Shown: positions 13,902 to 32,411 of the stretch, piece by piece
How the letters are laid out: every line of letters begins with the position of its first letter
Position numbering within the stretch: the stretch's first letter is position 1
Assembly (NCBI RefSeq): GCF_005771425.1
Contig: NZ_VBTZ01000005.1
Coordinates: 62,001 to 126,000 of the forward strand
Direction of reading: 5' to 3'
Source of the DNA: Methylocystis sp. B8
GTDB taxonomy: Bacteria > Pseudomonadota > Alphaproteobacteria > Rhizobiales > Beijerinckiaceae
Length of the DNA stretch: 64,000 nt
The notes under the pieces: model-generated
Databases searched by the model: none
The model's input: only the letters and a program-made list of their open reading frames with translations
Told to the model about the DNA's origin: nothing
Made by a program: the position numbers and the translations under genes

Positions 13902-15608
13902 ACTTCCATTGGGCTGGCGCAAATCGCTATTGTCCTCATAGCCGTCGTCGTCGCTGCGATTCCGCTCGGCGGCTACATCGCCAGAGTTCTGGCAGGCGAG
14001 CGCACCCTGCTCTCTCCCGCGTTCTCGCCTGTCGAACGCGCCTTCTACAAATTCTCCGGCGTCGATCCCGCGCGGGAGCAAAGCTGGCTGACATATACGA
14101 TGGCGATGCTCGCCTTCAGCGTTATCGGATTTATATCGCTCTACGCCCTGCAACGGCTCCAAGCCTATCTGCCGCTCAACCCTCAAGGCTTCGGCGGCGT
14201 TCCCGCCGACCTCGCCTTCAACACCTCGATCAGCTTCGTCACCAACACCAATTGGCAGAACTACGGCGGCGAGACGACAATGAGTCATCTCACGCAGATG
14301 CTCGGCCTCACCGTGCATAATTTCGTCTCGGCGGCGACTGGCCTTGCGATGGCTTTTGCGCTGGTGCGCGGCTTTTCGCGTGCGGAGTCGCCGACGGTCG
14401 GCAATTTCTGGGTCGATCTGACGCGCGCGACGCTCTATGTGCTGCTGCCCATGTCCGTCGTCGTCGCGCTCGTCCTCATCGCGCTGGGCGTTCCGCAGAC
14501 GCTCCAGGGCTCTATTGAAGCGACGACGCTGGAAGGCGCCAAGCAGGCCATCGCTATCGGCCCTATGGCGAGCCAGGAGGCGATCAAAGAACTCGGCACC
14601 AATGGCGGCGGCTTCTTCAACGCCAATTCGGCGCATCCTTTCGAAAGCCCGAATGCTTTTTCCAACATGCTGGAGATTTGGGCTCTGCTCGTCGTCCCCT
14701 TGGCGCTGGCTTTCGCCTTTGGGCGCGCCGTCTTAGACCATCGACAAGGCCGCGCGATCGCCATCACCATGATGATTGTGCTCGTTGCGGGCGCACTCGT
14801 CGCTTACTGGGCCGAGGCAAACGGAAATCCCTTGCTGACCGCGATCGGCGTCGATCCGTCGCCGGGCAATATGGAGGGCAAGGAAGTGCGCTTCGGCGTC
14901 GCGACCTCTGCGCTGTTCGCCACAGCGACGACAGGCACAAGCTGCGGCGCGGTCAATTCCATGCATGACTCCTTCATGCCGCTCGGCGGGCTCGTGCCCT
15001 TGTTCAACATGCTGATGGGCAGCATCGCGCCGGGCGGCGTCGGCGCCGGTCTCTACGGGTTTCTGGTGCTAGCGATCATCGCCGTCTTTGTGGCTGGTCT
15101 CATGGTCGGCCGCACGCCGGAATATCTCGGCAAGAAGATCGAGGCGCGCGAGATGAAGCTCGCGATGCTGGCGGTGCTGATCTATCCGCTCACCGTTCTT
15201 GGCTTCACCGCCATCTCGGTGATGCTCGAGACGGGCCTTGCCAGTCTGAACAACGCCGGCCCGCACGGGCTCTCCGAGATCCTCTACGCATTCGCCTCGA
15301 CCACCGACAATAACGGGTCGGCGTTCGCGGGGCTGACAGGCAATACGTTGTGGTACAACACGACGCTCGGCGTCGCCATGCTGCTTGGACGCTTCGCCTA
15401 CGTCATTCCCGTCTTGGCGATCGCCGGCTCGTTCGCGGCGAAAAAGAAAACCGCCGCGTCAGTCGGCACCTTCCCGACGCATGGGCCGCTCTTCATCGGC
15501 CTGCTGATCGGCGTCATCATCATCCTCTATCTGCTGCAATATTTTCCGGCGCTCGCGCTCGGCCCCATCGTGGAGCATTTCGCGCTGTTTGCTGGAAAGA
15601 CCTTCTAA
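13899..15608 (+). CDS. kdpA: K+-transporting ATPase subunit KdpA
   Basis: The 569-residue channel-like subunit that binds and translocates K+ in the inner membrane. It contains the four repeated selectivity-filter loops of the SKT superfamily: [11 protein letters not shown], the [17 protein letters not shown] loop, [16 protein letters not shown], and [13 protein letters not shown]. About ten membrane helices are apparent, and the length matches E. coli KdpA. The start is ATG 13899, with the unusual ribosome-binding arrangement described separately. It leads straight into kdpB. Confidence 0.97.
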
Positions 15609-15619
15609 GGAGCATGTCC

Positions 15620-17668
15620 ATGTCGCATAAGGTCGCCGCTCCCGGCTTGTTCGACGCCGGGATCATCAAGCGCGCCGCCGTCGACGCCTTCAAGAAGCTT
15701 GATCCGCGACGGCTTGCGCGCAATCCGGTGATTTTCGTCACGGAAATCGTGTCGGCGGTCGTCACGGTCTTCTTCGTGCGCGATCTCGTTGCGCAGAACG
15801 GCGTCGCCTATTTCTCTGGCCAGATCGCCGCCTGGCTCTGGTTCACGGTGCTTTTCGCCAATTTTGCCGAGGCTGTCGCAGAAGGGCGTGGAAAGGCGCA
15901 GGCGGACGCTTTGCGCAAGACCCGCACCGACACGCACGCCAAGCGGTTGATCGACCGGCAAAACAGAAGCGGGATGACGGACGTCTATGAAGGCGTGTCG
16001 GCGCTCGATCTCAGGCTCGGCGATGTTGTGCTGGTCGAAGCGGGCGACCTCATTCCTGGCGACGGCGAGGTGATCGAAGGCGTCGCCTCGATCAACGAAT
16101 CCGCGATCACAGGCGAATCCGCGCCTGTCATTCGCGAGGCGGGCGGCGATCGTTCGGCTGTCACCGGCGGCACCACGGTTCTCTCCGACTGGGTCAAGGT
16201 GAAGATCACCGCCGCGCCAGGTTCGACCTTCATCGATCGCATGATCGCGCTCGTCGAGGGCGCGCAGCGCCAGAAAACGCCGAATGAGATCGCGCTGTCG
16301 ATCCTGTTGTCGGGGCTGACAATCATTTTCCTCATCGTCTGCGTGACACTGTGGCCGCTCGCGATCTACTCGGGCACAACGCTTTCAATCACTGTGTTGA
16401 TCGCGCTGCTCGTCTGTCTGATCCCGACGACCATCGGCGGCCTCCTGTCCGCGATCGGCATCGCCGGCATGGATCGGCTGATCCGATTCAATGTCATAGC
16501 GACCTCCGGTCGCGCGGTTGAGGCCGCTGGCGACGTGGATACGCTGCTTCTCGACAAGACGGGCACCGTGACCTTCGGCAACCGCATGGCCGACGAGTTC
16601 ATTCCTGTCCAGGGCGTTTCGGAGCGCGCCTTCGTCGACGCCGCGCTGCTGGCGTCGCTCGCGGATGAAACGCCCGAGGGCAGGTCGATCGTCGCTCTGG
16701 CCAAGAGCGTTCTCGGCTCTTCGACGCCGACCCTCGGCCCGGAGGCGCAGATCGTTCCGTTTTCCGCGCACACGCGGATTTCCGGCGTCGATCTTCCCGG
16801 CCAGACGCTGCGCAAAGGCGCGGTCGATGCAGTCACCGCGCAAGTCAAGTCTGTTCCTGTCGATTTCGAACGCGCCGTGGAGCGGATTTCGCGCGCAGGC
16901 GGCACGCCTCTCGCCGTGTCGGAAAACGGCAGGCTGTTGGGCGTGATTCATCTCAAAGACATTATCAAGCCCGACATCAAATCGCGCTTCGCCGCCTTGC
17001 GCGCCATGGGCATCAAGACGGTGATGGTTACGGGCGACAATCCGATTACCGCCGCGGCGATCGCCGGCGAAGCTGGTGTCGACGACTTCATCGCGCAAGC
17101 CAAGCCCGAGGACAAGCTCGCCTATATTCGCAGGGAACAGCAGGGCGGACGCCTTATCGCCATGTGCGGCGACGGCACCAATGATGCGCCGGCGCTCGCT
17201 CAAGCGGATGTCGGCGTCGCCATGCAGACCGGCACGCAAGCGGCGCGCGAAGCCGGCAATATGGTTGACCTCGATAGCGATCCGACAAAACTCATCGAGA
17301 TCGTCGCGATCGGCAAACAGTTGCTGATGACGCGCGGATCGCTGACGACCTTCTCGATCGCCAATGACGTCGCAAAATATTTCGCGATCATTCCAGCGCT
17401 CTTTGTCGTCGCCTATCCGGAGCTCGAGGCGATCAACGTCATGAAGCTCGCCTCGCCGCAGTCCGCCATCCTCTCGGCGGTGATCTTCAATGCGCTCATC
17501 ATTATCGCGCTCATACCGCTGGCGCTGAAGGGCGTTCCTTACCGGCCTGTCGGCGCCGCCGCCTTGTTGCGGCGGAATCTGCTGATTTACGGGCTAGGAG
17601 GTCTGATTGCGCCCTTCGTTGGCATCAAGATCATCGATCTCGCCGTTTCGGCCATTCATCTCGCATAA
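15620..17668 (+). CDS. kdpB: K+-transporting P-type ATPase subunit KdpB
   Basis: Catalytic subunit coupling ATP hydrolysis to K+ uptake. It has 682 residues, the same length as the E. coli protein. The actuator TGES motif lies near 164-167, the phosphorylation site DKTGT has Asp312, and the [10 protein letters not shown] hinge and MVTGDN are present. I chose ATG 15620 because AAGGAG is seven bases upstream; the ATG two codons earlier (15614) is too close to that site. The frame is open far upstream, but that part overlaps kdpA and is not coding. Confidence 0.97.
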
Positions 17669-17679
17669 GGAGCTTCTAG

Positions 17680-18279
17680 ATGCTCTCCCAAATTCGCCCG
17701 GCGATCGTCATGATCGGTCTCTTCACCGCGCTCACCGGATTGGTCTATCCGCTCGCGATCACCGGCGTCGCTCAACTCGCGATGCCGACGCAAGCGAATG
17801 GAAGCCTGATCGAAGGCGATGGAACGGTCATCGGCTCGACGCTGATCGGGCAGAACTTCGTGTCCGATCGCTACTTCCATGGTCGGCCTTCGGCGACGAC
17901 CGCCCCCGATCCTGCTGATCCTTCAAAAACGACCGACGCGCCCTATAACGCATCGAACTCGATGGGCTCCAATCTCGGACCGACCTCGAAAAAGCTCGTC
18001 GATCGCGTGAATGCTGCGATCGAAGCGGAGTTCGCCGCCGGTCGCATCGATGTCGTCGCGGCTGACGCCGTGACGACTTCCGCCTCCGGCCTCGATCCAC
18101 ATATTTCACCCCAGTTCGCGCTTGCCCAGGCGTCAGCCGTCGCCAAGGCGCGCAATCTCAGCGAGATGCAAGTGCGCGCCCTTGTCGAGGCGAATACCGA
18201 AGGGCGCGTTCTTGGCGTGATCGGCGAGCCGCGCGTAAATGTGCTCTTGCTCAACATGGCCCTTGATCGGCTAAAATGA
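17680..18279 (+). CDS. kdpC: K+-transporting ATPase subunit KdpC
   Basis: Single-pass periplasmic-facing subunit of the KdpFABC complex. The 199-residue protein has one N-terminal membrane helix ([25 protein letters not shown]). Conserved blocks follow: [37 protein letters not shown], and the C-terminal [14 protein letters not shown] with [16 protein letters not shown] precedes the ATG. It follows kdpB by 11 bases. Confidence 0.96.
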
Positions 18280-18305
18280 GATGAAGCCCCAGAGGGTGGA
18301 CGTCT

Positions 18306-21005
18306 TTGGCACGCGACGACGGAGATTTCGACCGCCGGCCTGACCCCGATGCTCTCCTTGCCCTGAGCGACAAGGAGAGCAAAGGAAAGCTACGCGTTTT
18401 CCTTGGCGCCGCGCCGGGGGTCGGCAAGACCTATGCGATGCTGGCGCGCGCGCAAGCCGCAAAGGCTGAGGGCGTCGATGTTGTCATAGGCGTGGCGGAA
18501 ACCCATGGGCGCGTTGAGACGCAGGCGCTCGTCAATGGTCTCGAAACGCTCCCCCGCCGCAAATGCGAATATCGCGGTCGCATCATCGAAGAATTCGACA
18601 TCGACGCGGCGCTCGCTCGAAAGCCTCAGCTCATCCTCGTCGACGAGCTGGCGCATACCAACGCGCCAGATAGCCGTCACCCCAAACGATGGCAGGATGT
18701 CGAAGAGCTGCTTGAAGCCGGCATCGACGTCTGGACGACGCTCAATGTCCAGCATCTTGAAAGTCTCGCCGACGTCGTATCGCGCGTCACCGGCGTCGCC
18801 GTGCGAGAAACCGTGCCGGATCGCGTCCTGCAGAACGCCACCGACGTCATCCTTGTCGACATTACGCCGGACGAACTGCTCCAGAGGCTGAAGGAGGGCA
18901 AGGTCTACGTTCCTGAGACCGCGAAGCGTGCGATTCAAAATTTCTTCACGCCACGCAATCTCACCGCCTTACGCGAACTTGCGCTGCGGCGTACGGCCGA
19001 GCGCGTCGACGACCAGATGGTCGACTTCCTTCGTCAAGGAGCGATCGAAGGACCATGGGCGACGGCGGAACGCCTGCTGGTTTGCGTTGGCCGCGATGCA
19101 ACATCCGAAGCCGTGGTTCGCGCCGGCGCGCGACTCGCAACGGCCCTCAACGCCACATGGATCGCACTTTATGTCGAACGCGCCGGCCAGGAAGAACAAT
19201 CTGCGGAGGTCGTGAGAAACGTCGACCGGGCGTTACGCCTCGCGGAGCGGCTTGGCGCCGAAGTCGCGCGCATCTCGGGAGACGATCTTGTAGACGAAGT
19301 GCTGCGTTTTGCGCGACGCGAAAATATTACGCAGATTGTGCTCGGCCGCTCGCAGGCTCGTCCTTTCTCCCGATTATTCCGGCGTTCGCTCACCGACGAA
19401 ATTCTTCGGCAATCGACGGATATCGCCGTTCATGTCGTCGTCCAAGAGGATGGCGCGCTTGAAACCAGGCGTCGTCCCAAATTGCCGACCTTGTCGCAGG
19501 CGTGGCTTGGCGTCGGCGGCGCCGTCCTCGCGGTCACGATTACGGTTTTCATCGGCTATGCGCTCGACCGCTGGCTCGGCCTAGCCAATCCGTCGGTCAT
19601 CTTCCTGCTTCCCGTCGTGCTTTGCGCTGCGCGCTTTGGGATGTGGTCTGCGATCGTCGCGGCCGTTCTCTCCTTTCTTGCCTGCGACTTCTTCTTTTTC
19701 GATCCGCGTTATCAGCTCACAATCTCGGAACCGCAGGAATTCCTTTCGCTGCTCGTTGCCCTGGTCGTCGCCGTGATCACAGGAATGCTCGCAAGCAAAA
19801 TGCGCGATTATGCGCAAAACATGCGGCAGCGGTCCCAAGCCGTGCAGTCGCTGTTCGAATTTTCTCGCAAGCTGTCGACGATAACGACGCTTGAGGACAT
19901 TCTCTGGGTTTCTGCCCTGCAAATTCAGAAAGCCGGCGAAGCATCCTGTGTCGTGATGCTGATGCCGGAAGATATCGGGCTGAGAGTCGCGGCCGCCTGG
20001 CCGCCGGTCGATGAAATGGACGCCGGCGAACTCGCCGCCGCCCGATGGGCACTCGAAAAAAACGAGCCCGCCGGATGGCGGACCGATACGCTGCCCAATG
20101 TACGCTTTCAGTTCAGACCTCTCGCGACGGCGCGAGGCGTCGTCGCCGTTTGCGGAATCGAACCCAAGACGCCTGACGAGCCGCTCTCCGCCGCGTCGGA
20201 AAGCACGATCTCATCGCTCATTGAACAGACGGCGATCGCGATCGACCGATCGATGCTTGTCGGAGAATCCGTCAAGGCGGCGGCTTTGGAAGAGAATGAA
20301 AAACTGCGGACCATTCTTTTGTCCGCCCTGTCGCATGATCTGCGCACGCCGCTAACCTCGATCACCGGCGCGGTCACGAGCCTGCGCGAGCTCGGCGAGA
20401 AGCTTTCGCCCGAGGATCGCAAGGACCTACTCCTGTCGATCGAAGAAGAGACCGGGCGCCTCTCTCGTTTCATCGCCAATATGCTCGATATGTCTCGCAT
20501 TGAATCGGGCGCGATCTCGCCAGGGAGCGATCTCGTCAATGTGGCCGAGGTGATCCGCAATGTCCTCGAGAGATCCAAAAAAACTTTTCCCGGCAAGGAT
20601 ACCTCAATCAGCATCGCTCCTGACTTGCCGTCTATTCGTGGCGACGCCAATCTCCTCGGCCAGGTCCTCTTCAATCTGATCGACAATGCGCATAAATATG
20701 GCGGACCGACCGGCGCGATCATTCATGCCCGGCGCGAAGGCGGCGACGTCGTCATCACCATAACTGATGAGGGGCCCGGCGTGAAATCCGCGGACCTCGA
20801 GCGCATCTTCGAGAAATTTTATCGCAGCGGGCGCATTGACGGCCGTAAGGCCGGAACCGGGCTCGGCCTCTCGATCTGCCGCGGACTCGTTAAGGCCATG
20901 GGTGGAACCATTGTCGCGCAAAGCCCCGCCGTCCGCCGCAGAGGAACGAGGATTGTCATGCGTTTCCCCGCCCCGAGCGAGTCGAAGCAGGGCGTGGCGG
21001 CATGA
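18306..21005 (+). CDS. kdpD: osmosensitive K+ channel histidine kinase KdpD
   Basis: Inner-membrane sensor kinase controlling kdp in response to low K+ or turgor. It has 899 residues, close to E. coli KdpD. The N-terminal KdpD domain carries Walker A GAAPGVGKT (34-42) and LVDELAHTNAPDSRH. A universal-stress-like domain follows (about 245-370), then four clustered membrane helices (about 400-500) and a GAF-like region. The HisKA motif is SHDLRTPL with His677, and the ATPase domain has N and G boxes (FNLIDNAHKYG, GTGLGLSI). The start is TTG, preceded by AGAGGG. It ends in a 4-base overlap with kdpE. Confidence 0.95.
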   Translation: MARDDGDFDRRPDPDALLALSDKESKGKLRVFLGAAPGVGKTYAMLARAQAAKAEGVDVVIGVAETHGRVETQALVNGLETLPRRKCEYRGRIIEEFDIDAALARKPQLILVDELAHTNAPDSRHPKRWQDVEELLEAGIDVWTTLNVQHLESLADVVSRVTGVAVRETVPDRVLQNATDVILVDITPDELLQRLKEGKVYVPETAKRAIQNFFTPRNLTALRELALRRTAERVDDQMVDFLRQGAIEGPWATAERLLVCVGRDATSEAVVRAGARLATALNATWIALYVERAGQEEQSAEVVRNVDRALRLAERLGAEVARISGDDLVDEVLRFARRENITQIVLGRSQARPFSRLFRRSLTDEILRQSTDIAVHVVVQEDGALETRRRPKLPTLSQAWLGVGGAVLAVTITVFIGYALDRWLGLANPSVIFLLPVVLCAARFGMWSAIVAAVLSFLACDFFFFDPRYQLTISEPQEFLSLLVALVVAVITGMLASKMRDYAQNMRQRSQAVQSLFEFSRKLSTITTLEDILWVSALQIQKAGEASCVVMLMPEDIGLRVAAAWPPVDEMDAGELAAARWALEKNEPAGWRTDTLPNVRFQFRPLATARGVVAVCGIEPKTPDEPLSAASESTISSLIEQTAIAIDRSMLVGESVKAAALEENEKLRTILLSALSHDLRTPLTSITGAVTSLRELGEKLSPEDRKDLLLSIEEETGRLSRFIANMLDMSRIESGAISPGSDLVNVAEVIRNVLERSKKTFPGKDTSISIAPDLPSIRGDANLLGQVLFNLIDNAHKYGGPTGAIIHARREGGDVVITITDEGPGVKSADLERIFEKFYRSGRIDGRKAGTGLGLSICRGLVKAMGGTIVAQSPAVRRRGTRIVMRFPAPSESKQGVAA

Positions 21006-21691
21006 GCGGCGCGAGCATTCTCGTCGTCGACGATGAACCGCAAATACAGCGCGTCTTGCGGCCTTCCTTGACGGCGAGCGGCTATGAGGTTCTCGAAGCG
21101 GCGACAGGCCGCGAGGCGCTCGCGGCTGTATCCGCGAATTCTCCCGATCTCGTCATCCTCGACCTTGGTCTTCCCGATATGGACGGCAAGGAAGTTTTGC
21201 GAAAGCTGCGAATCCTCACGCGAACGCCGGTGATCGTTCTCTCGGCGCGCGACCGTGAATCGGAAAAGATTGCGGCGCTCGACCTCGGCGCGGATGACTA
21301 TGTCGAAAAGCCATTCGCCATGGGAGAATTGCTGGCGCGCATGCGCACAGCGTTACGTCACTCACAGAGTGCGTCTTTGGAGTCAGACCACGTCGTCGCC
21401 AACGGTCTCGCCGTGAATGTTCAAAAGCGCATGGTCACAAAAAGCGGCGCGCCGGTGAAATTGACGCCCAAGGAATTTGATCTTCTGGCCTATCTCGCGC
21501 GACACGCCGGCCGGCCGCTGACGCATCGCGAAATCCTGAAAACAGTTTGGGGTCCGGCGCATCAGAACGACAGTCAATATCTGCGCGTGTTCATCGGCCA
21601 GCTGCGGGCGAAAATAGAAGACAACGCCGCGACGCCCAAAATCATTACGACGGAACCGGGCGTCGGCTATCGATTTATAACGTCTGAGTGA
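21002..21691 (+). CDS. kdpE: response regulator KdpE
   Basis: OmpR-family response regulator that activates kdpFABC when phosphorylated by KdpD. The receiver domain has the acidic pocket (VVDDEP), the phospho-acceptor Asp54 in VILDLGLPDMDG, and the Ser/Lys switch residues (LSARD, VEKPF). The winged-helix DNA-binding domain contains LTPKEFDLLAYLARHAGRPLTH. The 229-residue length is standard. The ATG overlaps the kdpD stop (ATGA). It ends 19 bases before a convergent gene. Confidence 0.95.
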   Translation: MSGASILVVDDEPQIQRVLRPSLTASGYEVLEAATGREALAAVSANSPDLVILDLGLPDMDGKEVLRKLRILTRTPVIVLSARDRESEKIAALDLGADDYVEKPFAMGELLARMRTALRHSQSASLESDHVVANGLAVNVQKRMVTKSGAPVKLTPKEFDLLAYLARHAGRPLTHREILKTVWGPAHQNDSQYLRVFIGQLRAKIEDNAATPKIITTEPGVGYRFITSE

Positions 21692-21710
21692 CGATCTCTC
21701 GCCTGGCGCC

Positions 21711-22529
21711 TCAATAGGGCGAGAAAAACGGCGGCGCGAATGCGCGCGGAATAAACCCGAAAAGCTCCCGACCGAAGCGGCGTCTGGGCGGCGGCTCGGC
21801 GTATGGGCGCTCGCGAACATCGCCCAAAATTTCACCCTTTTCCGTGACCACAACCCACCGACCTGCGCGCTCGCGGAGCGCCACCACCCGGCCAGCGCCC
21901 GGCACGATTTCGCCCGGCTCGACCCCGATCATTCCGCCGTCATATTCGACGAGCGCCGCGCCATGATAGACGTCGCGCACCCTGTAGCCGCTCAAGACCT
22001 TTGACGTCGGCGGGGCCATTTCGCTGGGCGTCACGCCAACTTTGGCGGTTTCATTCTTGGCTGCGCGAGGCACTTTGGTCTCGGCTTTTTCGGAGGGAGA
22101 CGGCGCGAGGGCAGCTTGCGTTGCGCTTGCGGCAGGCTTGCTTTCGATGGATGAGGGCTGCGGGGCGACAGCTTGCGCGCTGACCTTTTCAGCTTCTTGC
22201 CGCTTCTCCACGGCATCCAGTTTTGTGCGCAACTCGCGCACTTCGTCTTGAAGAGCGGCGACTCGACGCTTCGTCGCTTCGTCCGGCGCCGCCGTGGTCA
22301 CCTGTTTTGGCGACTCGGCAGAGGTTTTTTGCGCGATCGCTTCTTTTGGATGGTCGGACCCATAAAAGCGCGCGCCCGCGACCGCGGCGAGACCAACGAT
22401 CGCGACGATCAGACCATAGCGGAGCCGCCGACGCCCACTCCGATCGATCACGATCTCTATCGGCAGGCTTGACGGCGCGGCCTTCTTTGTCGGCTGCGAA
22501 GGCTCCGGCGGAATAATCAGCTCGTTCAT
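21711..22529 (-). CDS. single-pass envelope protein with coiled coil, PilP-like C-terminus
   Basis: A 272-residue protein of unknown role. Residues about 37-55 form one membrane helix (YGLIVAIVGLAAVAGARFY) after a basic cytoplasmic segment, so the rest should be periplasmic. A short coiled coil follows (KRRVAALQDEVRELRTKLDAVEK, about 85-107), then a Pro/Ala/Ser-rich linker. A compact C-terminal domain (about 178-235) contains VRDVYHGAALVEYDGG...PGEIVPGAGRV and GRWVVVTEKGEI, reminiscent of the small domain found in PilP-like and conjugation-associated proteins. No pilus or secretion genes are nearby, so that likeness does not establish function. It is convergent with kdpE. Confidence 0.7.
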   Translation of the reverse strand: MNELIIPPEPSQPTKKAAPSSLPIEIVIDRSGRRRLRYGLIVAIVGLAAVAGARFYGSDHPKEAIAQKTSAESPKQVTTAAPDEATKRRVAALQDEVRELRTKLDAVEKRQEAEKVSAQAVAPQPSSIESKPAASATQAALAPSPSEKAETKVPRAAKNETAKVGVTPSEMAPPTSKVLSGYRVRDVYHGAALVEYDGGMIGVEPGEIVPGAGRVVALRERAGRWVVVTEKGEILGDVRERPYAEPPPRRRFGRELFGFIPRAFAPPFFSPY

Positions 22530-22693
22530 GCGTAGAAATCCTAATTTTGGACCGACGCGAAGCCTTTACCGATGCGCCTGAATCGCGGCGAAATGGAGTC
22601 GAAGCGATAAATCGTTCCTTACAAAAGCTTAATTTGGCGTTTGCGGGCGCGGACATACATGGGGCCTAACCGTCCACCCCATCGAGGCCCGTC

Positions 22694-23197
22694 GTGCGTA
22701 AACAACTTCTCACCATGATGTCCGTAGCGATGTTCGCTGCGGCCGGTCTCTCAGGGACCGCCCTTGCCGAACCGCCTGCAACCGATCAGCCTGCTAAGGC
22801 TGAGGATCACGGTTTCTCTCCAGAAGACCGCGCCGCGTTCCTAGACGCCCGGATCGCGGCGTTAAAAGCTGGCCTGAAGCTCACTCCGGCCCAGGAAAAA
22901 GCGTGGCCCGCGCTCGAAGCCGCTTTGCGCGACGTCGGTAAGGCGCGCGCGGATCGCGCGGCCGACTGGCGCGAAAAATGGGAAGACATTCGCGAGCATC
23001 ACAATGTTATTGAAGGCCTGCGGCTGCGTTCCCAGGGACTTGCGACACGCGGCGCAGAGCTCGGCAAGCTCGCGGACGCAGCAAAACCGCTCTTCGACAG
23101 TCTCGACGAAGCGCAAAAGCATCGTTTCGGCGTTCTTCTCTTCCATGTCTTGAAGCCGCATGGACATGGCCACTGGGCAATGCACGGCGATCATTGA
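22694..23197 (+). CDS. Spy/CpxP-like periplasmic LTXXQ-motif protein
   Basis: Small exported protein (167 residues) with an N-terminal signal peptide (cleavage likely after GTALA). The body is helical and carries the LTPAQEKAWPALEAAL motif typical of LTXXQ-family periplasmic chaperone-like or stress proteins. The C-terminus is His-rich (PHGHGHWAMHGDH), which might bind metal. GTG start at 22694. It is divergent from the membrane protein on the left; a shared control region 22530-22693 is plausible but shows no recognisable operator. Confidence 0.85.
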   Translation: MRKQLLTMMSVAMFAAAGLSGTALAEPPATDQPAKAEDHGFSPEDRAAFLDARIAALKAGLKLTPAQEKAWPALEAALRDVGKARADRAADWREKWEDIREHHNVIEGLRLRSQGLATRGAELGKLADAAKPLFDSLDEAQKHRFGVLLFHVLKPHGHGHWAMHGDH

Positions 23198-23276
23198 TAG
23201 AGGCGATGGCTGGGCGCGGGCAGGAAACATCGATCTTGCGCGCGCCCGCCGAATCTCCGGATAGCGCCAAGCGGCG

Positions 23277-23912
23277 TTACATTCCCCACTCCACAAGGGC
23301 CCTCTCGGCCACCCCTACATCGTTTCTTATCCTGTAAATTGTTTGCCGCGTCAGGCCGCTCGCGACAGCTATCATGCCGATGCGTGTCCCCTGAGCGAGC
23401 ATGTCGCGGACCGCGTTGAACTGCTCTCGCGAGTAGCTCGGTTTCCGACCTCGATATTTGTTCGCGTTATTCGCCTTCGCGTGTTCGATCCCCGCCCGCT
23501 GCGCCTCCTTCGTGGCTTCCGCTTGGGCTTGGTCCGTCGCCGCCATGAACGCAATCAGCGCGTCCCGCACGGCTTGCTGCACGGGGTCCGCGGTCGCGCC
23601 GTCAAAGGTCAGTCCATTGATGACTGTCCGAACGATGACGCCCCGGCGCATGAACTCTCGAATGGCGTCCGTTGCGTCGGCGTAGCTGCGCCCTAATCGA
23701 TCAACCCAACGGACCACCAGCGTATCGCCTGAGCGCAACATATCGAACAGGCGACGACCTTGCGCTCGCTCTGCAAGGCGAACGCGGACGCCGGAGACGC
23801 CCTCATCCCAAACAACCTGGTCGATGGCGAACCCGGCCGCGCTGGCCTGCGCCTCTTGGTCCGCAATTGTCTGGCTCAAGGTTGAGGCGCGGGCGTATAG
23901 GATCGTGCTCAA
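23277..23912 (-). CDS. serine resolvase/invertase family recombinase
   Basis: Small serine recombinase (211 residues). The catalytic N-terminal domain starts STILYARAST with Ser10 as the nucleophile, followed by the active-site arginines (Arg8 and those in VVRWVDRLGRS). The long E helix is about 100-140, and a C-terminal helix-turn-helix reads IGMIAVASGLTRQTIYRIR. I use TTG 23912 because AAGGAG lies eight bases upstream; a longer upstream reading has no support. No transposase accompanies it. The res-like site immediately upstream overlaps its ribosome-binding region, as in Tn3-type tnpR, so autoregulation is likely. Confidence 0.93.
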   Translation of the reverse strand: MSTILYARASTLSQTIADQEAQASAAGFAIDQVVWDEGVSGVRVRLAERAQGRRLFDMLRSGDTLVVRWVDRLGRSYADATDAIREFMRRGVIVRTVINGLTFDGATADPVQQAVRDALIAFMAATDQAQAEATKEAQRAGIEHAKANNANKYRGRKPSYSREQFNAVRDMLAQGTRIGMIAVASGLTRQTIYRIRNDVGVAERALVEWGM

Positions 23913-23925
23913 GCATGCGACTCCT

Positions 23926-24039
23926 TGTCCGTTAGGATAGCGTCCGCACATTCATATGTCCGTTAGCCTATGTCAAACCTTACGGACACATTGAAATTTG
24001 CCGTTTCGCAATGTCTGTTTAGATATACCCTTACGGACA
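23926..24039. other. complete Tn3/gamma-delta-type res recombination site
   Basis: Three subsites with arms related to TGTCCGTTAG occur upstream of the resolvase. Site I is 24012-24039 (28 bp, arms TGTCTGTTTA and CTTACGGACA, centre AT). Site II is 23956-23989 (34 bp, arms TGTCCGTTAG and CTTACGGACA). Site III is 23926-23950 (25 bp, one good arm). The spacers are 22 bp (I-II) and 5 bp (II-III). Lengths, order and total (114 bp) coincide with the classical gamma-delta res, with site III nearest the resolvase gene. Confidence 0.8.
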
Positions 24040-24169
24040 CCTTCCATCATTTAGGCCGATTATTCCGCAAGAGTTGCTTGGCTTCCCATCCGCCCGGCTG
24101 ATAAAATCCACGCCTCGGCTAAGCCTCTTCCCGCGCCATCCGTAACGAGTAGCCTGGAGTTTCTGCGTC

Positions 24170-24400
24170 ATGTCTGACGACAGTCACGACGACATTCTTA
24201 ATTTGACCGATCCGGCGGAATACGCCGACGCGGTCTCTCAGCGTACGATGGCGTTTTGCCATTTGGCTAAGCTGGCCGATAGCGTTCAGGATGAGACCGT
24301 CAAGGAACTCTGCGTGACGATGCTGCGCAAACTCAATTCCAGCATGCGGGCGCCTGCCGCGGCCGAACTGCGCTCGATTGAAGGCGCGTCGAGAAACTAG
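24170..24400 (+). CDS. small soluble protein of unknown function, 76 aa
   Basis: A 76-residue acidic, helical protein from ATG 24170. It has no signal peptide or membrane segment. The central part (RTMAFCHLAKLADSVQDETVKELCVTMLRKL) looks like a helical pair. No family is recognised and the neighbours give no clue: it sits between the res site and tRNA-Leu. Codon use is in keeping with the host, so I regard it as a real gene with modest confidence. Confidence 0.6.
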   Translation: MSDDSHDDILNLTDPAEYADAVSQRTMAFCHLAKLADSVQDETVKELCVTMLRKLNSSMRAPAAAELRSIEGASRN

Positions 24401-24576
24401 GGACGCGCTGCGCCATAATCCAGAGACAAACGTTACATCTCTGTGAGCCGGTCGACGGCGCGGCCATCGGCTAGCGATCAAGAGCGTCGCGCCTTCGCCA
24501 GTCTTGTGTTGCGGCGGGAACGCAGAAAGCCAAATCAATTCAGGAAGCGCAGATAGCAAACGGCTATCACATTGTT

Positions 24577-24661
24577 TGGTGCCCAGGAGAGGACTCGAAC
24601 CTCCACGGCTTTCACCACTGGTACCTGAAACCAGCGCGTCTACCAATTCCGCCACCTGGGC
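24577..24661 (-). tRNA. tRNA-Leu (CAG), CCA encoded
   Basis: The minus-strand sequence from 24661 folds as a class II tRNA. Acceptor GCCCAGG pairs with CCTGGGC, the D-arm includes GGTAGACGC, the anticodon stem CTGGT/ACCAG encloses loop TTCAGGT (anticodon CAG), and a variable arm and T-arm GGTTCGAGTCC follow. Discriminator A and CCA are encoded. The long variable arm confirms Leu. Confidence 0.96.
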
Positions 24662-24846
24662 ATCGCGCCCGTCTCATAGGGGCGGCGGACGCTCCCTGTC
24701 AATGCGCGCCTTGACCAAAAACGCCGGACCGGCCTGCGCGGAACGCCGCGCTTCCTCGCGCATTTCCTTCGTCGTCAAATTTCGCTAGAGCGTTGGCGAC
24801 CATTTCACCGGCGGGAGCCGGCGCGGCGCAAGCGGAGCACATCTCG

Positions 24847-25872
24847 ATGATCGGCGACAATAACCTGACCATTGGCGCGGGACGCGTGGTGACGGTATTC
24901 GGCGGCTCTGGCTTCGTCGGCCGTCATGTCGTGCGCGCCTTAGCGCGCGATGGCTGGCGCGTGCGCGTCGCCTGCCGGCGGCCTGACCTCGCCTTCTATC
25001 TCCAGCCGCTCGGCCGCGTCGGCCAGGTGATGGCGGTGCAGGCCAATGTGCGCCATCCGGAGTCGATCAAGGCGGCTCTGCGCGGCGCATCCGCCGTCGT
25101 CAATCTTGTCGGTATTCTCGCCGAAACCGGCGCGCAGAAATTTGCGACCGTGCAGGCAGGCGGCGCGCACGTCATCGCCGAAGCGGCGAAAGAGGCCGGC
25201 ATCGACAATGTCGTGCATATTTCCGCAATCGGCGCCGACCCGGAATCTCGCTCGGCCTATGGCCGCAGCAAGGCGGAAGGCGAAGCGGCCATGCTCGCGG
25301 AGATTCCTTCCGCGGTCATCCTGCGTCCATCGATCATCTTCGGACCGGAAGATGATTTCTTCAACCGCTTCGCGACGATGGCGCGCTACTTTCCCGTCGT
25401 GCCGATCGTCGGCGCCAATACCAAATTCCAACCGGTCTATGTGGGCGACGTCGCTCACGCCGTCGCGACCGCGCTTGCGGGGCGCGCTAAGGCTGGCGCC
25501 GTTTATGAGCTCGGCGGCCCCGAGGTTAAAAGCTTCGCGGACATCATCGACTATGCCCTTAAGGTCGCGCAGCGCGAGCGCCGAGTCCTGAAACTTTCCT
25601 TCGGCTTCGGCAAACTCATGGCCGTCGTGACGCAAATGCTGACGAAACTTTCCTTGGGCCTCTTCCCGAAACTCTTGCGCATGACGCGAGATCAAGTCGA
25701 GCTGCTGAAGCACGACAATGTCGTCAGCGAGGCGGCGAAGGTTGAAGGGCGCACGCTTCAAAGCCTCGGCGTCTGTGATCCGCAATCGATCGAATCGATC
25801 GTGCCGACCTATCTCTACCGCTATCGCAAGGTCGGACAGTATCAGACGCAGCGAATGGGCGAATCCGTCTAG
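24847..25872 (+). CDS. NDUFA9-type NAD(P)-binding protein (atypical SDR)
   Basis: The 341-residue Rossmann protein of the complex I NDUFA9 subunit family. The N-terminal cofactor motif is VTVFGGSGFVGRH. Further family marks are VVNLVGILAE, HISAIGAD, YGRSKAEGE (an active-site-like Tyr and Lys) and ILRPSIIFGPEDDFFNRFA. In alphaproteobacteria such proteins can associate with NADH dehydrogenase, but no nuo genes are near, so a role in ubiquinone metabolism or complex I assembly is only inferred. I prefer ATG 24847 with GGAG upstream; an in-frame TTG at 24793 would add 18 residues. Confidence 0.88.
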   Translation: MIGDNNLTIGAGRVVTVFGGSGFVGRHVVRALARDGWRVRVACRRPDLAFYLQPLGRVGQVMAVQANVRHPESIKAALRGASAVVNLVGILAETGAQKFATVQAGGAHVIAEAAKEAGIDNVVHISAIGADPESRSAYGRSKAEGEAAMLAEIPSAVILRPSIIFGPEDDFFNRFATMARYFPVVPIVGANTKFQPVYVGDVAHAVATALAGRAKAGAVYELGGPEVKSFADIIDYALKVAQRERRVLKLSFGFGKLMAVVTQMLTKLSLGLFPKLLRMTRDQVELLKHDNVVSEAAKVEGRTLQSLGVCDPQSIESIVPTYLYRYRKVGQYQTQRMGESV

Positions 25873-25879
25873 CGTTGAG

Positions 25880-26584
25880 CTAGCGCCGATCGCCAAACTG
25901 CGCCGTTCCCTCGCGAAGCCCTGGCGATAGCATCCGATGGATGCGCGTCATGAAGGCGACGGCAAAGAGCGGCGTCAGCACGTTCAGTCCCGGCGTCGCC
26001 ACAAAAACGGCGATGAACAGTCCGGCCACGAACAGCCATGGCGCATGGCGGCGGCGCATTTCCTCTGATTCTTGCAGCGATCGAAAACGCGTCGAGGCGA
26101 AAAGAAAATATTCGCGGCCGAAGAGATAGGCGTTGGCGATAAGAAACGCCGCCGCGTTTATTCCCGGCACGAAGAGCAGCAGCAGCGCGAAGAAATTGAC
26201 GATCGCCGATACGCCGGCGAAGCGCAGCGCCATGAACATCGCCTGAGTCGCAGGAATGGCGCGGCCGCGCCGCCCCGGCGGATAGAGGTCCGCTTCGACA
26301 TGGTCGGCGAGATCGTCAAGGAACAGTCCTGAAACCAGCACGGAGACCGGGGCGATGAGAAACGCCATCAGGAAGAACAGTCCCGCGCCCGTCGCATAGG
26401 CCAAAGCCGTCTGCAGCCAGGGATGATCGACCATCACAAAGGACATGGCGAGCTTGTCGAGGCCGACCCAGGCCAACGCAAGCAACAGGAAGGTCATTCC
26501 CAGACTTTTGACGAGGACCGCGCGGAACGGCGGCGTCACGATCTGACGCAGAGCCGCCAAAGCGGCGTTGAACATTTCGGTCAT
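25880..26584 (-). CDS. CysZ-like/EI24 family membrane protein
   Basis: A 234-residue inner-membrane protein with several hydrophobic segments (about 25-50, 62-95, 120-150, 180-210). It matches the EI24/CysZ family. CysZ itself is a sulfate channel in enterobacteria, but the family in alphaproteobacteria is not tied to cys genes, and none occur here. The central soluble loop contains DLADHVEADLYPPGRRGRA, a region conserved in the group. It is convergent with the NDUFA9-like gene, 7 bases apart. Confidence 0.82.
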   Translation of the reverse strand: MTEMFNAALAALRQIVTPPFRAVLVKSLGMTFLLLALAWVGLDKLAMSFVMVDHPWLQTALAYATGAGLFFLMAFLIAPVSVLVSGLFLDDLADHVEADLYPPGRRGRAIPATQAMFMALRFAGVSAIVNFFALLLLFVPGINAAAFLIANAYLFGREYFLFASTRFRSLQESEEMRRRHAPWLFVAGLFIAVFVATPGLNVLTPLFAVAFMTRIHRMLSPGLREGTAQFGDRR

Positions 26585-26703
26585 TGGGATTCGATCATCG
26601 CGAGTGGATCATGGGATCGCGCACGCCGGGCGCGTTGCGCTCACCGTGCAGATGGCGTCTTGCGTCGAGCGACGCAAGCGCCGCTCACCCATATCGGCCG
26701 GCG

Positions 26704-27291
26704 TTATTTGCTTAAATACGCGCCGAGATTTTCGAGACCTTTCTCGAATTGATCGCCAATCATCTTATCGCGGCTCATGAAGATGTTCATGGCCCTGCTC
26801 ATGAAGCTGGCGTCGCCGGACATGCTCCACACGACATGAGTTTTACGGGCTGCTGACTCGCCGCCAAAACCAAGCGCGCGCGCCAGCCATCGACCTTCGG
26901 TGAATTCGCCGTCAGGCGCCAGAAAAAAGGTCACGTCGTTCGCCGCCGCAAAAGGCTTGCGCATATCGAGCTTCAGGTCGACGCGCTCGCTTGGCAGGCT
27001 GTCCACGATCGTCAAACGCCCCGCGCCGACCTTCTTGTCGCCGGACCATTCGAAAGCCGCGCCGGGACCCGTTGTGGGCCCTTCGTAATGGGTTTCAGCA
27101 TTTGGATCGAGCTTCGCCCAAGGCGACCATGACTCCCAATTGCGCAGATTGTTGATCGCCGCGAAGACTTGGCGCGGCGGCGCATTGATGACAGCCTCTC
27201 GCCGCACGATGAAGCTATTGGGCTGGAGAAATATGGCCAATGCAAGCAAAGCCGCAGCGTAGCAAATGACGATAAATAGCATTCCGGCCAT
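26704..27291 (-). CDS. SRPBCC-fold polyketide cyclase-like protein
   Basis: A 195-residue protein with an N-terminal membrane anchor (MLFIVICYAAALLALAIFL) and then an SRPBCC/START-like domain. Family signs are INAPPRQVFAAINNLRNWESWSPW near the start of the domain and GLENLGAYL in the C-terminal helix. The family binds hydrophobic ligands; the ligand here is unknown. ATG at 27291 is supported by GGAGGAG. It lies downstream of the phosphopantetheinyl transferase on the same strand, 64 bases apart, and might share its transcript. Confidence 0.82.
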   Translation of the reverse strand: MAGMLFIVICYAAALLALAIFLQPNSFIVRREAVINAPPRQVFAAINNLRNWESWSPWAKLDPNAETHYEGPTTGPGAAFEWSGDKKVGAGRLTIVDSLPSERVDLKLDMRKPFAAANDVTFFLAPDGEFTEGRWLARALGFGGESAARKTHVVWSMSGDASFMSRAMNIFMSRDKMIGDQFEKGLENLGAYLSK

Positions 27292-27355
27292 AAATCTCCT
27301 CCAATGCCTGTGCGATTAAGAACTCGCGATGAAACTAGCGCGCCGGGCTCGAGCT

Positions 27356-27955
27356 TCAAACGACCTGAATCAGCTCAGACGGACGCGCTTCCTCGACACG
27401 AAAATTTGCTTCGCCGCCGCGCGCCGCCGCGGCGATGAAGAAACCGCCGCGACGCCATTGCGCCAGGGCGTAAGTCTCCTCTGATTCGCTGCTAACGGCG
27501 AGCGGCGACAGGCTGACGACAAAGCTGTCGAGTCCGCGCGCCAATCCCCGCCCATCGGCCTTTAGCACGGCTTCCTTGAGGGTCCAGATCGCGAAGAAAA
27601 CTTCGCTCTGCGACGCCGGATCAAACTTGGAGCGCACGAGCGCCGCTTCTTCTGGCGCAAAAAATCGCTCCGCCACTTTCAAGGCGTCTCGGGGCTTCGC
27701 AAATGACTCGACGTCGACGCCAACGTCGTACCCTTGCGCGATCGCCACAGCGACCATGCCGCGCGTATGCGAGAGGCTGAAGTCGAGGCCGACGGGCGGC
27801 GAAAACAGAAAGGGCTTGCCGTGAGACGTCGCGCCGAAACGCCATTCGGCGGGCGCGATTCCCTTAGCGCGGTCAGAGAGGCGCGCGCGCAGCAGAGCAT
27901 GCGCGGCGACATAGGCGCGTCGATCGGCCTCAAACGCAAAACGCGCAGCCCGCAC
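27356..27955 (-). CDS. 4'-phosphopantetheinyl transferase superfamily protein (Sfp type)
   Basis: Transfers the phosphopantetheine arm of CoA to carrier-protein serines. Visible motifs are DFSLSHTRGMVAVAI, the magnesium-binding GVDVESF, and the FFAIWTLKEAVLKADGRGL signature of the Sfp/AcpT group. From GTG 27955 it has only 199 residues and lacks the usual first 30-40. The frame is open further upstream with family-like residues (FIDLAAIGDDEW, AALLDEAE), but no ATG, GTG or TTG lies in that part. A CTG at 28081 overlaps the stop of the upstream reductase gene. The true N-terminus is therefore probably longer than drawn. Confidence 0.85.
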   Translation of the reverse strand: MRAARFAFEADRRAYVAAHALLRARLSDRAKGIAPAEWRFGATSHGKPFLFSPPVGLDFSLSHTRGMVAVAIAQGYDVGVDVESFAKPRDALKVAERFFAPEEAALVRSKFDPASQSEVFFAIWTLKEAVLKADGRGLARGLDSFVVSLSPLAVSSESEETYALAQWRRGGFFIAAAARGGEANFRVEEARPSELIQVV

Positions 27956-28077
27956 TGTTTCAGCTTCGTCGAGGAGCGCCGCAAGCCTTGGCCATTCATC
28001 GTCGCCGATCGCCGCGAGGTCGATGAATGAAACATCGACGAAGGCGGTGAAACTTTTTTCAGTGGCGTCGGCCGGCG

Positions 28078-29238
<1,161 letters not shown>

Positions 29239-29309
29239 TCAGCGCCGTCCCTGTCGTCTATCGCATTTGTCGAGAGATTCAAACCCGCGCAGTTTAGAAG
29301 ACTTACGCG

Positions 29310-29699
29310 TCACCCCTGCTGGGCGGGGGTCGTCACGACGAGCCCTTCGAGCTCCGGCCTGACGGTGATCTGACAGCAAAGCCGCGAATTCGGTTTCACG
29401 TCAAAGGCGAAGTCGAGCATATCCTCTTCCATCTGCGACGCTTTGCCGGTCTTTTCAGTCCAGTTTTCATCGACATAGACGTGACAGGTGGCGCAGGCGC
29501 AGGCGCCGCCGCACTCCGCGGCGATCTCCGGAATGTCGTTACGACGCGCGGTCTCCATCACCGTCGAGCCGACCTCGCCTTCAACGGTGCGGGCCTGGCC
29601 CTGCGAATCCACGAAGGTGATCTTGACCTTTGTCGGCGCGCCGCCACCCGGTTCGGCGCCATAGCGGGTCGCAGCATCCTCAAAGCTCATCTTCGCCAT
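29310..29699 (-). CDS. 2Fe-2S ferredoxin, adrenodoxin/FdVI type
   Basis: Electron carrier of 129 residues. Cysteines 63, 69 and 72 and Cys109 are spaced C-x5-C-x2-C-x36-C, the adrenodoxin-type cluster pattern (CGGACACATCHVYVDENW and SRLCCQ). A short N-terminal extension of about 25 residues precedes the ferredoxin fold. ATG 29699 is chosen; a longer reading from 29777 adds non-family residues. It lies 182 bases upstream of the reductase on the same strand, suggesting an NADPH-reductase-ferredoxin chain for P450s, Fe-S assembly or a monooxygenase. Confidence 0.93.
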   Translation of the reverse strand: MAKMSFEDAATRYGAEPGGGAPTKVKITFVDSQGQARTVEGEVGSTVMETARRNDIPEIAAECGGACACATCHVYVDENWTEKTGKASQMEEDMLDFAFDVKPNSRLCCQITVRPELEGLVVTTPAQQG

Positions 29700-29975
29700 G
29701 ACGCCTGTCTCTTCCTCATCCATGCTGGTTCTTGCCGCGCTTTCCCGATTGTGATCGAGCCGAACGCCGCAGGCCATTGTTCTTACGCGGCGCGCCCAAG
29801 TCGCCGTTCAGTTAGCACCCGCCTGTTTGCTGCGCTAGCCCCTCTCGGATGCGCGCGACCCTAGGCCACATTCAATGTGATTCGATGGCGCAGCGCCCAG
29901 AGAGGCGCGCCGCAAAATCCCTAGTTTCGCGTTAGGAAGGCGTTTTTATTGAACAATGCGCGCGCGTTCGCGCCG

Positions 29976-30572
29976 CTACAACCGAGCGCGCGTCCATTGG
30001 CCGATACGCAGCGCGACTTGCGCCGCTGCGTCGCTCAGCGCCCGCGCGGCCTGCGCCCCGATATGGTCAGGCGCCGGCGTTTCTTCGATAAAGATCCGCG
30101 CCGCCCGCGCCCGGCCGTTGTTCACGTCGATCAGTTCGACGGAAACTTCGATGACCGCAAGATCGCGGGCGATGTCGATCTCGAAGCGACGCAGGTCTGT
30201 CTGCAGTCTGGTTTGCGCGCCCATGCCGGCGGAAGCCGAAAGCCCGCAGCGCTGCAAGCTTTCGATCAGGCGTCGCTGAAAAAGAAGCGGCAAAGGCTCC
30301 GACCATTGCACGCCGGGAAGTACGGCGACACTATCATCGGCTGCGCGAACGACGATGCGATCTGACGAGGTTGGGGCGACAGCCGCCGGTTCGCTGACAA
30401 AGACCGGGGGGCCGCCGCGCAAAGCGATGCCGCGCAACCCGGCCATGTCGCTCGTCAGATCAAACGTCTCGCGCGTCGCCTGCGCGCAGGCGCCCACGAC
30501 AAGCGCAAGTAACGCGATCGCCGCCATCCGCGCGGCCTTGCGTCGCGTCGCCATGGACGCTTTCAGTTTCAT
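29976..30572 (-). CDS. ABC-type transport auxiliary lipoprotein (PqiC/LptE-like)
   Basis: A 198-residue outer-membrane or periplasmic lipoprotein. The signal ends in a lipobox LLALVVGAC after a basic stretch (KLKASMATRRKAAR). The mature part matches the ABC_trans_aux group that accompanies MCE/Mla transporters (RIVVRAADDSVAVLPGVQWSEPLPLLFQRRL, then ALSDAAAQVALRI). It is the last gene of mlaE-mlaF-mlaD, 96 bases after mlaD, and probably links the MCE protein to the outer membrane. Confidence 0.88.
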   Translation of the reverse strand: MKLKASMATRRKAARMAAIALLALVVGACAQATRETFDLTSDMAGLRGIALRGGPPVFVSEPAAVAPTSSDRIVVRAADDSVAVLPGVQWSEPLPLLFQRRLIESLQRCGLSASAGMGAQTRLQTDLRRFEIDIARDLAVIEVSVELIDVNNGRARAARIFIEETPAPDHIGAQAARALSDAAAQVALRIGQWTRARL

Positions 30573-30668
30573 CGCCGACCCGCAGCCCCAATCTCGCCCG
30601 CGCGCCGAGTCGGGCTTTCGTCCTTCTAACCGATCCGCGCATCGCCATAAAGCCACGCTCAGGCCGTT

Positions 30669-31574
30669 CTACTGACCTTGATATTCGGGCACCGACTGGG
30701 ACGGTCCAAAGATAAATTGTGATGGATTTTTCTCGACTGAACGCAGCGTGCGGTCGAATGTGCCGATCGCCTTGCGCCCATCCACCGCAAGCTGCTCATA
30801 CTCGCGAAGCCCTGTCCCGGCGAAACGGTTGATACGTTCCGAAGCGCCGGCGATGTTGCCGGTGATCGCCTTGATCTGCTTTGGGTCGACCGCCTTGATC
30901 GTCTGATCGGCGGCCGCAAGCACCTTGTCGAGCCGCGCCGCCACTGGCTTCATTGACTGCGCGACATCGGACGCGTCGCGAATGAACCTTACGATCGAAG
31001 CGGAATTGTCCGAGAGCGACTTGCTGACCGTCTCTGCGTTTTTGAGCGTCGCCGTCAGCGCCGGACCGCCTTCGTCGACGAGCTTGTCGAGTTTGGTGAT
31101 GAGTTCGGCGGCCTTCGTCGACAGGTTCTGAACATTGACGAGCAAGTTCTGGAACTCGGAAGGGTGGGCCTGAATCTGAGGATATTTTTGATCTTTTTGA
31201 GCCGTGAGATCCGGCGCGCCCGGCGTGCCGCCGATAAGCAGAACGTCGGCGACGCCGGTAAATCCGCGAAACTCCAAGCGCGCGCGCGTGTCGGTCTTCA
31301 CCGGCGTCCGATTGTCGATCTTGACAAGAACGTCGACTCTGCTCGGATCTTGTTCGGAAATGCCAAGATGCGTGACTTCGCCGACCTTTACGCCATTGAA
31401 CAGCACCGACGCCCCGCGAGTCAGTCCTGACACAGACCCCGGAAAAATAATTTGATAGGTTTCCTGCCGGCCGATCTGACTGGGTCCGGAAAACCAATAG
31501 ACGAAGAGGAAGGCGGCGAAGGCGGCCGCCAGCGTAAAAGCGCCGATCAGGGCGTAGTTGGCGCGGGTTTCCAT
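30669..31574 (-). CDS. mlaD: MCE family protein MlaD, lipid transport
   Basis: Membrane-anchored MCE protein of 301 residues. The N-terminal helix is ALIGAFTLAAAFAAFLFVYWF (residues about 8-30). The MCE domain follows (about 38-120: IIFPGSVSGLTRGASVLFNGVKVGEV, then TRARLEFRGFTGVADVLLIGG). The long C-terminal part is helical. It forms the periplasmic hexameric ring through which phospholipid passes. The start overlaps the end of mlaF by 28 bases. Confidence 0.94.
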   Translation of the reverse strand: METRANYALIGAFTLAAAFAAFLFVYWFSGPSQIGRQETYQIIFPGSVSGLTRGASVLFNGVKVGEVTHLGISEQDPSRVDVLVKIDNRTPVKTDTRARLEFRGFTGVADVLLIGGTPGAPDLTAQKDQKYPQIQAHPSEFQNLLVNVQNLSTKAAELITKLDKLVDEGGPALTATLKNAETVSKSLSDNSASIVRFIRDASDVAQSMKPVAARLDKVLAAADQTIKAVDPKQIKAITGNIAGASERINRFAGTGLREYEQLAVDGRKAIGTFDRTLRSVEKNPSQFIFGPSQSVPEYQGQ

Positions 31575-32404
31575 TCTTCGTCCTTCTGCTCGACGCGCGC
31601 CGCGCTCAGACGGCCGCCGCGCACGCCGTGGAAATAGGCTCTCAGCCAGGGATGGTCGGACGCGAGCAAGGTTTCCAACGGCCCTGAGGCGATGACCCGA
31701 CCTTCGGCGAGCGCCGCCACCCTGTCGCAGATCGAATACAGGCTGTCGAGATCGTGTGTCACCATGAACACGGTCAGCCCGAGGGTCTGCTGCAGCGTGC
31801 CGATCAACTCGTCAAATTCGGCGGCGCTGATCGGATCGAGCCCCGAAGTCGGCTCGTCCAGGAACACAAGCTCGGGATCAAGCGCCAAGGCGCGCGCCAG
31901 GGCCGCGCGCTTCACCATGCCGCCCGACAATTCTGACGGAAATTTGTCCGCCGCGTCGGATCCAAGCCCTACAAGCTCAAGCTTGAGCATGGCCAGCTCG
32001 TCCATCAGAGGCTGCGAGAGTTCGCGGGTTTCCCGCATCGGCATCTGAATATTCTGCTTGACCGTGAGGCCGGAGAACAGCGCGCCGTTCTGAAACAGCA
32101 CGCCCCAGCGCTGTTCGAGGGCGCGGCGTTCGATCGGCCCCAGCGCATCCCGATCCTGCCCAAAAATGCGAATAGCGCCGCCGCGCGTCGGCACGAGGCC
32201 GAGGATCGCGCGCGTCAGCACCGACTTGCCCTGCCCGGACCCTCCGACGAATCCGAGCACCTCGCCGCGGTAAACGTCGAGATTGAGCCCTTTCATGATC
32301 GTTTTGTCGCCAAAGCCGACGACGAGATCGCGCACGCTGATGATGATGTCGCGGTTAGGCCGCGGTTGAAGCGCGCCGTTGAGAGTGGTGGAGGAGTTGG
32401 TCAT
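31547..32404 (-). CDS. mlaF: ABC transporter ATP-binding protein MlaF
   Basis: ATPase of the Mla/MCE lipid transporter (285 residues). Walker A is GGSGQGKSVL, the Q-loop is in VLFQNGALF, the signature is ELSGGMVKRAALARAL, Walker B is LVFLDEPTSGLD, and the switch His is in MVTHD. The C-terminal extension (RGGRLSAARVEQKDEE) is usual for this group. ATG 32404 follows the mlaE stop by seven bases. Confidence 0.95.
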   Translation of the reverse strand: MTNSSTTLNGALQPRPNRDIIISVRDLVVGFGDKTIMKGLNLDVYRGEVLGFVGGSGQGKSVLTRAILGLVPTRGGAIRIFGQDRDALGPIERRALEQRWGVLFQNGALFSGLTVKQNIQMPMRETRELSQPLMDELAMLKLELVGLGSDAADKFPSELSGGMVKRAALARALALDPELVFLDEPTSGLDPISAAEFDELIGTLQQTLGLTVFMVTHDLDSLYSICDRVAALAEGRVIASGPLETLLASDHPWLRAYFHGVRGGRLSAARVEQKDEEWKPAPTTP

Positions 32405-32411
32405 CGCCCGC

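Follow-up and report, generated by a model that had tools for sequence, protein, structure and literature searches.

The window analysed here, a 64-kb stretch of Methylocystis sp. B8 DNA (64,000 nucleotides), encodes a small serine resolvase preceded by a three-part res site. Judged from sequence comparison across genomes, this pair is probably the resolution module of a former mobile element (a phage, plasmid or integrative island) that is now chromosomal in Methylocystis. The pair most likely once served to split multimers of such elements and is now a remnant or retired. An earlier note had described arms related by sequence that form a three-part res beside a solitary serine resolvase, and this description was confirmed: the window contains four exact matches to the motif TGTCCGTWAG, every one within the res, and the mean count of the motif was 0.04 in 100 shuffles, none of which reached four. 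The pairing of resolvase and res without a transposon also proved real, with no transposase gene beside it.

The res spans 114 bp (23926–24039) and ends 13 bp ahead of the resolvase TTG at 23912, in agreement with the earlier reading (Table 1). Its six arms, in order on the resolvase strand, are TGTCCGTAAG, TGTCTGTTTA, TGTCCGTAAG, TGTCCGTTAG, TGTGCGGACG and TGTCCGTTAG, and they form three dyad subsites upstream of the resolvase gene with site I distal, as in a Tn3-type tripartite res. By analogy with Tn3/gamma-delta, we infer that site I is the crossover site. In one arm register the window res reads 28/23/32/6/25 (site I/spacer/site II/spacer/site III), with centre distances of 53.0 and 34.5. 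The subsites had been given as 28, 34 and 25 bp with 22- and 5-bp spacers, the same as gamma-delta. Alignment to the gamma-delta res, read from the F plasmid, upheld the dyad arms, the 28- and 25-bp sites, the total of 114 and the centre distances, but not site II, which is 32 bp, or the spacers, which are 23 and 6. The values of 34, 22 and 5 bp are obtained by extending site II by a base on either side, and the claim of identical lengths depends on this padding, because gamma-delta reads 28/22/34/5/25 in the same arm register. Since total length and centre distances equal those of gamma-delta, the geometry of the window res is of Tn3 type; exact gamma-delta lengths are not required of the wider tripartite group, because SGI1 differs too. 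The smallest subsite had been said to overlap the ribosome-binding region, whereas the AGGAG adjoins site III instead.

Table 1. Positions of the resolvase, its res subsites and neighbouring features in the window
Feature	Position	Strand	Basis
Small serine resolvase, 211 aa, TTG start	23277–23912	minus	Pfam Resolvase 4e-22, HTH_7 1.4e-11
AGGAG, likely ribosome-binding site (role inferred)	23921–23925	minus	read from sequence; abuts site III
res site III, 25 bp	23926–23950	minus	arm scan
res site II, 32 bp in arm register, contains TTGACA	23957–23988	minus	arm scan
res site I, 28 bp, presumed crossover site, central AT, right half-site weak	24012–24039	minus	arm scan
76-aa gene, divergent from resolvase	24170–24400	plus	adjacent in three genomes (window, G036, G018)
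tRNA-Leu(CAG), synteny boundary with relatives	24577–24661	minus	integrase abuts in two of three relatives inspected

Across related loci the commonest geometry was 28/22/32/6/25 (24 of 38 loci), with a 22-bp spacer between sites I and II, and the window and its relative G036 are therefore one base longer there; a spacer of 23 also fits locus L114 and, in variant form, L053. Half-site IR (TGTCTGTTTA), the right half of site I, is weak in the window, scoring 2.8 bits against a minimum of 3.0 among 34 clade copies from outside the genus, narrowly the lowest. A consensus scan detected no promoter within the res, and the TTGACA in site II is only a suggestion of a promoter element. Searches for RNA families in 22500–25500 returned the tRNA only.

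The resolvase combines an N-terminal Resolvase domain with a C-terminal HTH, the architecture of small serine resolvases (about 180–210 aa), and keeps R8, S10, Q14, Q19, D36, R49, R72 and R75, residues with catalytic roles. Among solved structures, Sin and gamma-delta were nearest by sequence match, Sin being the best (E = 1e-14). The protein belongs to a distinct alphaproteobacterial clade, in which S10 is present in 39 of the 40 readable copies from 45 loci, window included. Two further open frames with a Resolvase domain, at G000:C1:708886 and C25:74536 (559 and 581 aa), are probably large serine recombinases.

The 45 loci comprised the window, seven relatives, 31 of 33 genome loci and six plasmid records; L041 and L047, the same places as L034 and L036, were left out before counting, as were plasmid matches H4 and H5, which were of the same species and identity as H3. 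Upstream regions were scanned with arms learned from the window alone, small length changes being allowed at a penalty. At 38 of the 45 loci (37 of 44 without the window) the upstream region scored above the highest of 1,289 control windows drawn from the same loci, counts that do not represent independent events as the clade loci are mutually related. The res was recognized by eye at three more loci (L056, L061 and L065, with a weak site I in L061), ahead of a 58–71-aa ORF that precedes the resolvase. This arrangement suggests a two-gene unit behind the res. No clear res was seen at four loci, three of them (L070, L073 and L113) genes without an intact 5' part and the fourth (L071, 49% identity) with diverged sites. 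The outcome that the earlier note had named as refuting its reading, close relatives with the resolvase but no upstream repeats, did not arise at most loci examined. The comparison of arm scores left out the seven loci without an adjacent res. In IMG/VR, 12 of the 23 loci found were clade members (52% identity or more), and all ten with enough upstream DNA scored above the control maximum (12.7 to 52.8 versus 4.8). A DNA pattern scan of the viral contigs gave one match with no resolvase nearby, which was taken as chance.

Clade members also reside on plasmids. In M. nodulans, an intact copy lies on the 12.6-kb plasmid pMNOD06, which also encodes a primase/polymerase, while the copy on pMNOD07 is split between frames and the longest ORF of that on pMNOD03 begins at residue 66; further copies occur on large plasmids of Pseudochrobactrum, Neorhizobium and Agrobacterium. 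The search of plasmid records, which covered at most 5,000, gave at least seven matches at 60–80% identity and one further clade member at 59%, the other matches listed being at 41% or less. All 142 matches in phage isolate records were below 60% identity, the best 15 of the 142 being at 36% or less. Proteins encoded next to the resolvase on viral contigs (97 of the 109 ORFs listed, after removal of the 11 that encode resolvases and of one that overlaps a resolvase) matched integrase, terminase, portal, tail, head, primase and partition families (among the top 25 families). Around the genome and plasmid loci (129 of 200 listed ORFs), integrases, primases, ParA and tail proteins recurred (among the top 25 families), and ordinary chromosomal families recurred as well. 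Resolvase and ORFs overlapping it aside, no neighbour family was common to more than five loci. A home-made profile detected a tyrosine-recombinase homologue, in some cases a fragment, in the fetched flank of 22 of the 45 loci and not in the other 23. Of the three origins that the earlier note had offered, that of a phage or plasmid module is favoured, because relatives of the resolvase occur on viral contigs and plasmids and in the neighbourhood of integrases. Among the papers listed by our literature searches, none dealt with this resolvase clade or with phage-borne res.

The four Methylocystis copies form one clade (100/99). Two of the relatives, G036 and G018, are metagenome bins. The window and G036 are near-continuously alike from 14461 to 33334. 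G018 shares 23278–24417 (resolvase, res and 76-aa gene) with the window, but at another place; there the shared part is near a contig end and begins 83 bp past a segment that many genus genomes conserve. A sequence of about 55 bp that includes a partial hairpin (L036:14509–14565) recurs at many sites across genus genomes; its end lies 33 bp from the G018 resolvase stop. Four other fetched genus genomes contain homologues of the 76-aa gene (63–65% identity); the DNA just upstream of the gene includes a highly conserved stretch, and the gene has no Pfam match. To its right, homology of the window to G018, G005 and G024 begins at the 3' end of the tRNA-Leu (24577) and extends for roughly 1.3 kb in G018 and for at least 5 kb in both G005 and G024; on the left side, blastn found no similarity of the window to any of these three. 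This synteny break may partly reflect only conservation of the tRNA. In G005 and G024 (L118 and L119) the 3' end of the tRNA-Leu is directly adjoined by a gene for a tyrosine integrase that has an Arm-DNA-bind_3 domain; beyond it lie DUF1156 and SNF2-helicase genes in G005 and, in G024, a gene for a DNA methylase. No integrase was seen by eye at the tRNA-Leu of G018. These integrases make tRNA-Leu(CAG) an apparent hotspot for islands in the genus. Against descent from a mobile element, the window's contig gave no integrase match, and no duplication of the tRNA 3' end as an att repeat was found elsewhere in the genome (up to 2 mismatches over 19 bases).

Whether the module is maintained or decaying was assessed from its divergence among the Methylocystis copies. 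Decay into a remnant without present function, which is compatible in origin with a former mobile element, is a serious possibility that falls somewhat short of an even chance. It is suggested by half-site IR, narrowly the lowest of the 35 compared, and by the occurrence of the clade in only 4 of 39 genus genomes. IR is weak or lost in three of the four Methylocystis copies, representing two distinct sequences: the window and G036 are identical at 2.8 bits, and G018 scores -3.1 bits. The G018 copy (L036:14598–15233) carries S10A in an open frame together with the lost IR, the only loss of S10 in the 40 readable copies. It is a natural candidate for a non-recombining resolvase. In G036, decay extends beyond site I: among the 35 copies compared, it has the lowest score at arm IIL and the second lowest at IIIL. 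In the comparison of the window with G036, dN/dS was 0.30 for the resolvase, above the 0.08 of kdpD and the 0.03 of the 76-aa gene. Against decay, both of these copies are open and keep the catalytic residues, and their 33 differences (17 synonymous, 16 nonsynonymous) include fewer nonsynonymous changes than expected under neutrality (P = 0.001, simple binomial). The res arms have also changed less than the rest of the res, at 5 of 60 positions versus 18 of 54 (P = 0.001). Synonymous divergence was lower in the resolvase (0.116) than in kdpD (0.293; P = 0.0001). Despite this low value, the spacer between sites I and II (23989–24011, compared with L034 of G036) has changed at 11 of 23 positions; by eye, no other part of the 1.5-kb alignment has changed as much.

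Descent from a Tn3-family transposon that has lost its transposase and ends would account for the three-site res of Tn3 type, and the genome does contain a Tn3 transposase fragment with a stop; this fragment, the sole Tn3 transposase match in the genome, lies on another contig (C4), and no TnpA accompanies the resolvase in the same element. Among 34 carrier genomes, Tn3 transposase had no match in 25, and in the remaining nine the matches were not near the resolvase and lay on other contigs, except that in G108 and G116 the distance is at least about 80 kb by coordinate, with membership of the same contig unsettled. Many of these genomes are drafts in which a link across contig breaks is possible, and some resolvase contigs are short (for example, 3.9–5 kb). 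The search took 27 of the 33 genome loci, leaving out the plasmid records as well as L041, L047, L054, L060, L072 and L073; of these six loci, all but L073 lie in genomes or organisms that were searched anyway. Tn3-family terminal inverted repeats are about 38 bp long. A generic repeat scan of 22500–25000, which did not use Tn3 end sequences, gave inverted pairs of at most 18–21 nt at 71–84%, none convincing. Within the limits set by short draft contigs, the clade appears not to be one of Tn3-transposon resolvases, and we regard a Tn3 relic as unlikely.

A change of function in Methylocystis, from recombinase to DNA-binding regulator that would control the divergent 76-aa gene through the shared intergenic res, fits the erosion of parts needed only for strand exchange (IR in three copies, the catalytic serine in G018), and the window and G018 keep good site II and III arms, an open frame and the divergent 76-aa neighbour. 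This reading is made less likely by the weakness of G036 at IIL and IIIL, and we judge it quite improbable. Use of the res as a chromosomal site where incoming elements that carry the same res would land, as the earlier note had proposed, or as a target of res-hunting transposons is very improbable: res-hunting is reported to account for insertions located upstream of resolvase genes (PMC12217951; PMC7765201), but the window res contains no insertion, the homology limits to G018 are not at site I, and the search for a second res copy suggested in that note found none in the genome.

As the resolution module of a former mobile element, the pair would, by analogy with Tn3/gamma-delta and SGI1, work as follows. 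Each of the three sites would be bound by resolvase dimers. When the element is present as a dimer or multimer, two of its res copies in direct repeat would pair in a synaptosome, and the central AT of site I would be the point of strand exchange, which would yield monomers. Binding at sites II and III, just upstream of the gene, would repress the resolvase. As a single res was found in the genome, the resolvase would normally lack a substrate, and the window copy may therefore be either idle and autorepressed or acting only on rare tandem copies. Since no substrate is visible in the window, the module is probably idle or decaying.

Collectively, these observations tie a three-part res and its resolvase to alphaproteobacterial phages, plasmids and islands rather than to transposons. 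They also provide dozens of natural res variants, including spacings of sites I and II altered by one or two bases and a copy that lacks the catalytic serine, for testing how much variation the geometry of a Tn3-type synaptosome tolerates. For the window alone, the gain in annotation is modest.

Comparison with known systems places the module nearest to tripartite res. The res of Sin (Tn552-type), whose protein is the best solved-structure match, has two sites. The half-sites of Sin site II are direct repeats (PMC9943657), unlike the three dyad sites of the window. The same text describes the Tn3/gamma-delta model for dimer binding, pairing and recombination at site I (PMC9943657). Gamma-delta (Tn1000) shares with the window three dyad sites, a length of 114 with centre distances of 53 and 34.5, TGTC-type arms and a gene directly downstream of site III; it differs in its 34-bp site II (32 bp in the window), in having a transposase gene, which is missing next to the window resolvase, and in the A/T run in the middle of site II, a run of six or more being present in just 2 of 38 clade sites. 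A global alignment of its TnpR with the window resolvase, which was gappy, gave identity at 60 of 175 residues aligned. In the integrative island SGI1, gene S027 encodes a Tn3-like resolvase and is preceded by a tripartite res (PMC12217951); that res is given as 107 bp (28/22/30/2/25, central AC), compared with 114 bp (28/23/32/6/25, central AT) in the window. Resolution is reported there to speed the loss of island multimers (PMC12217951). Judged by res layout, SGI1 appears to be the closest known case of the working mode suggested here, in which an island-borne resolvase and a tripartite res remove multimers.
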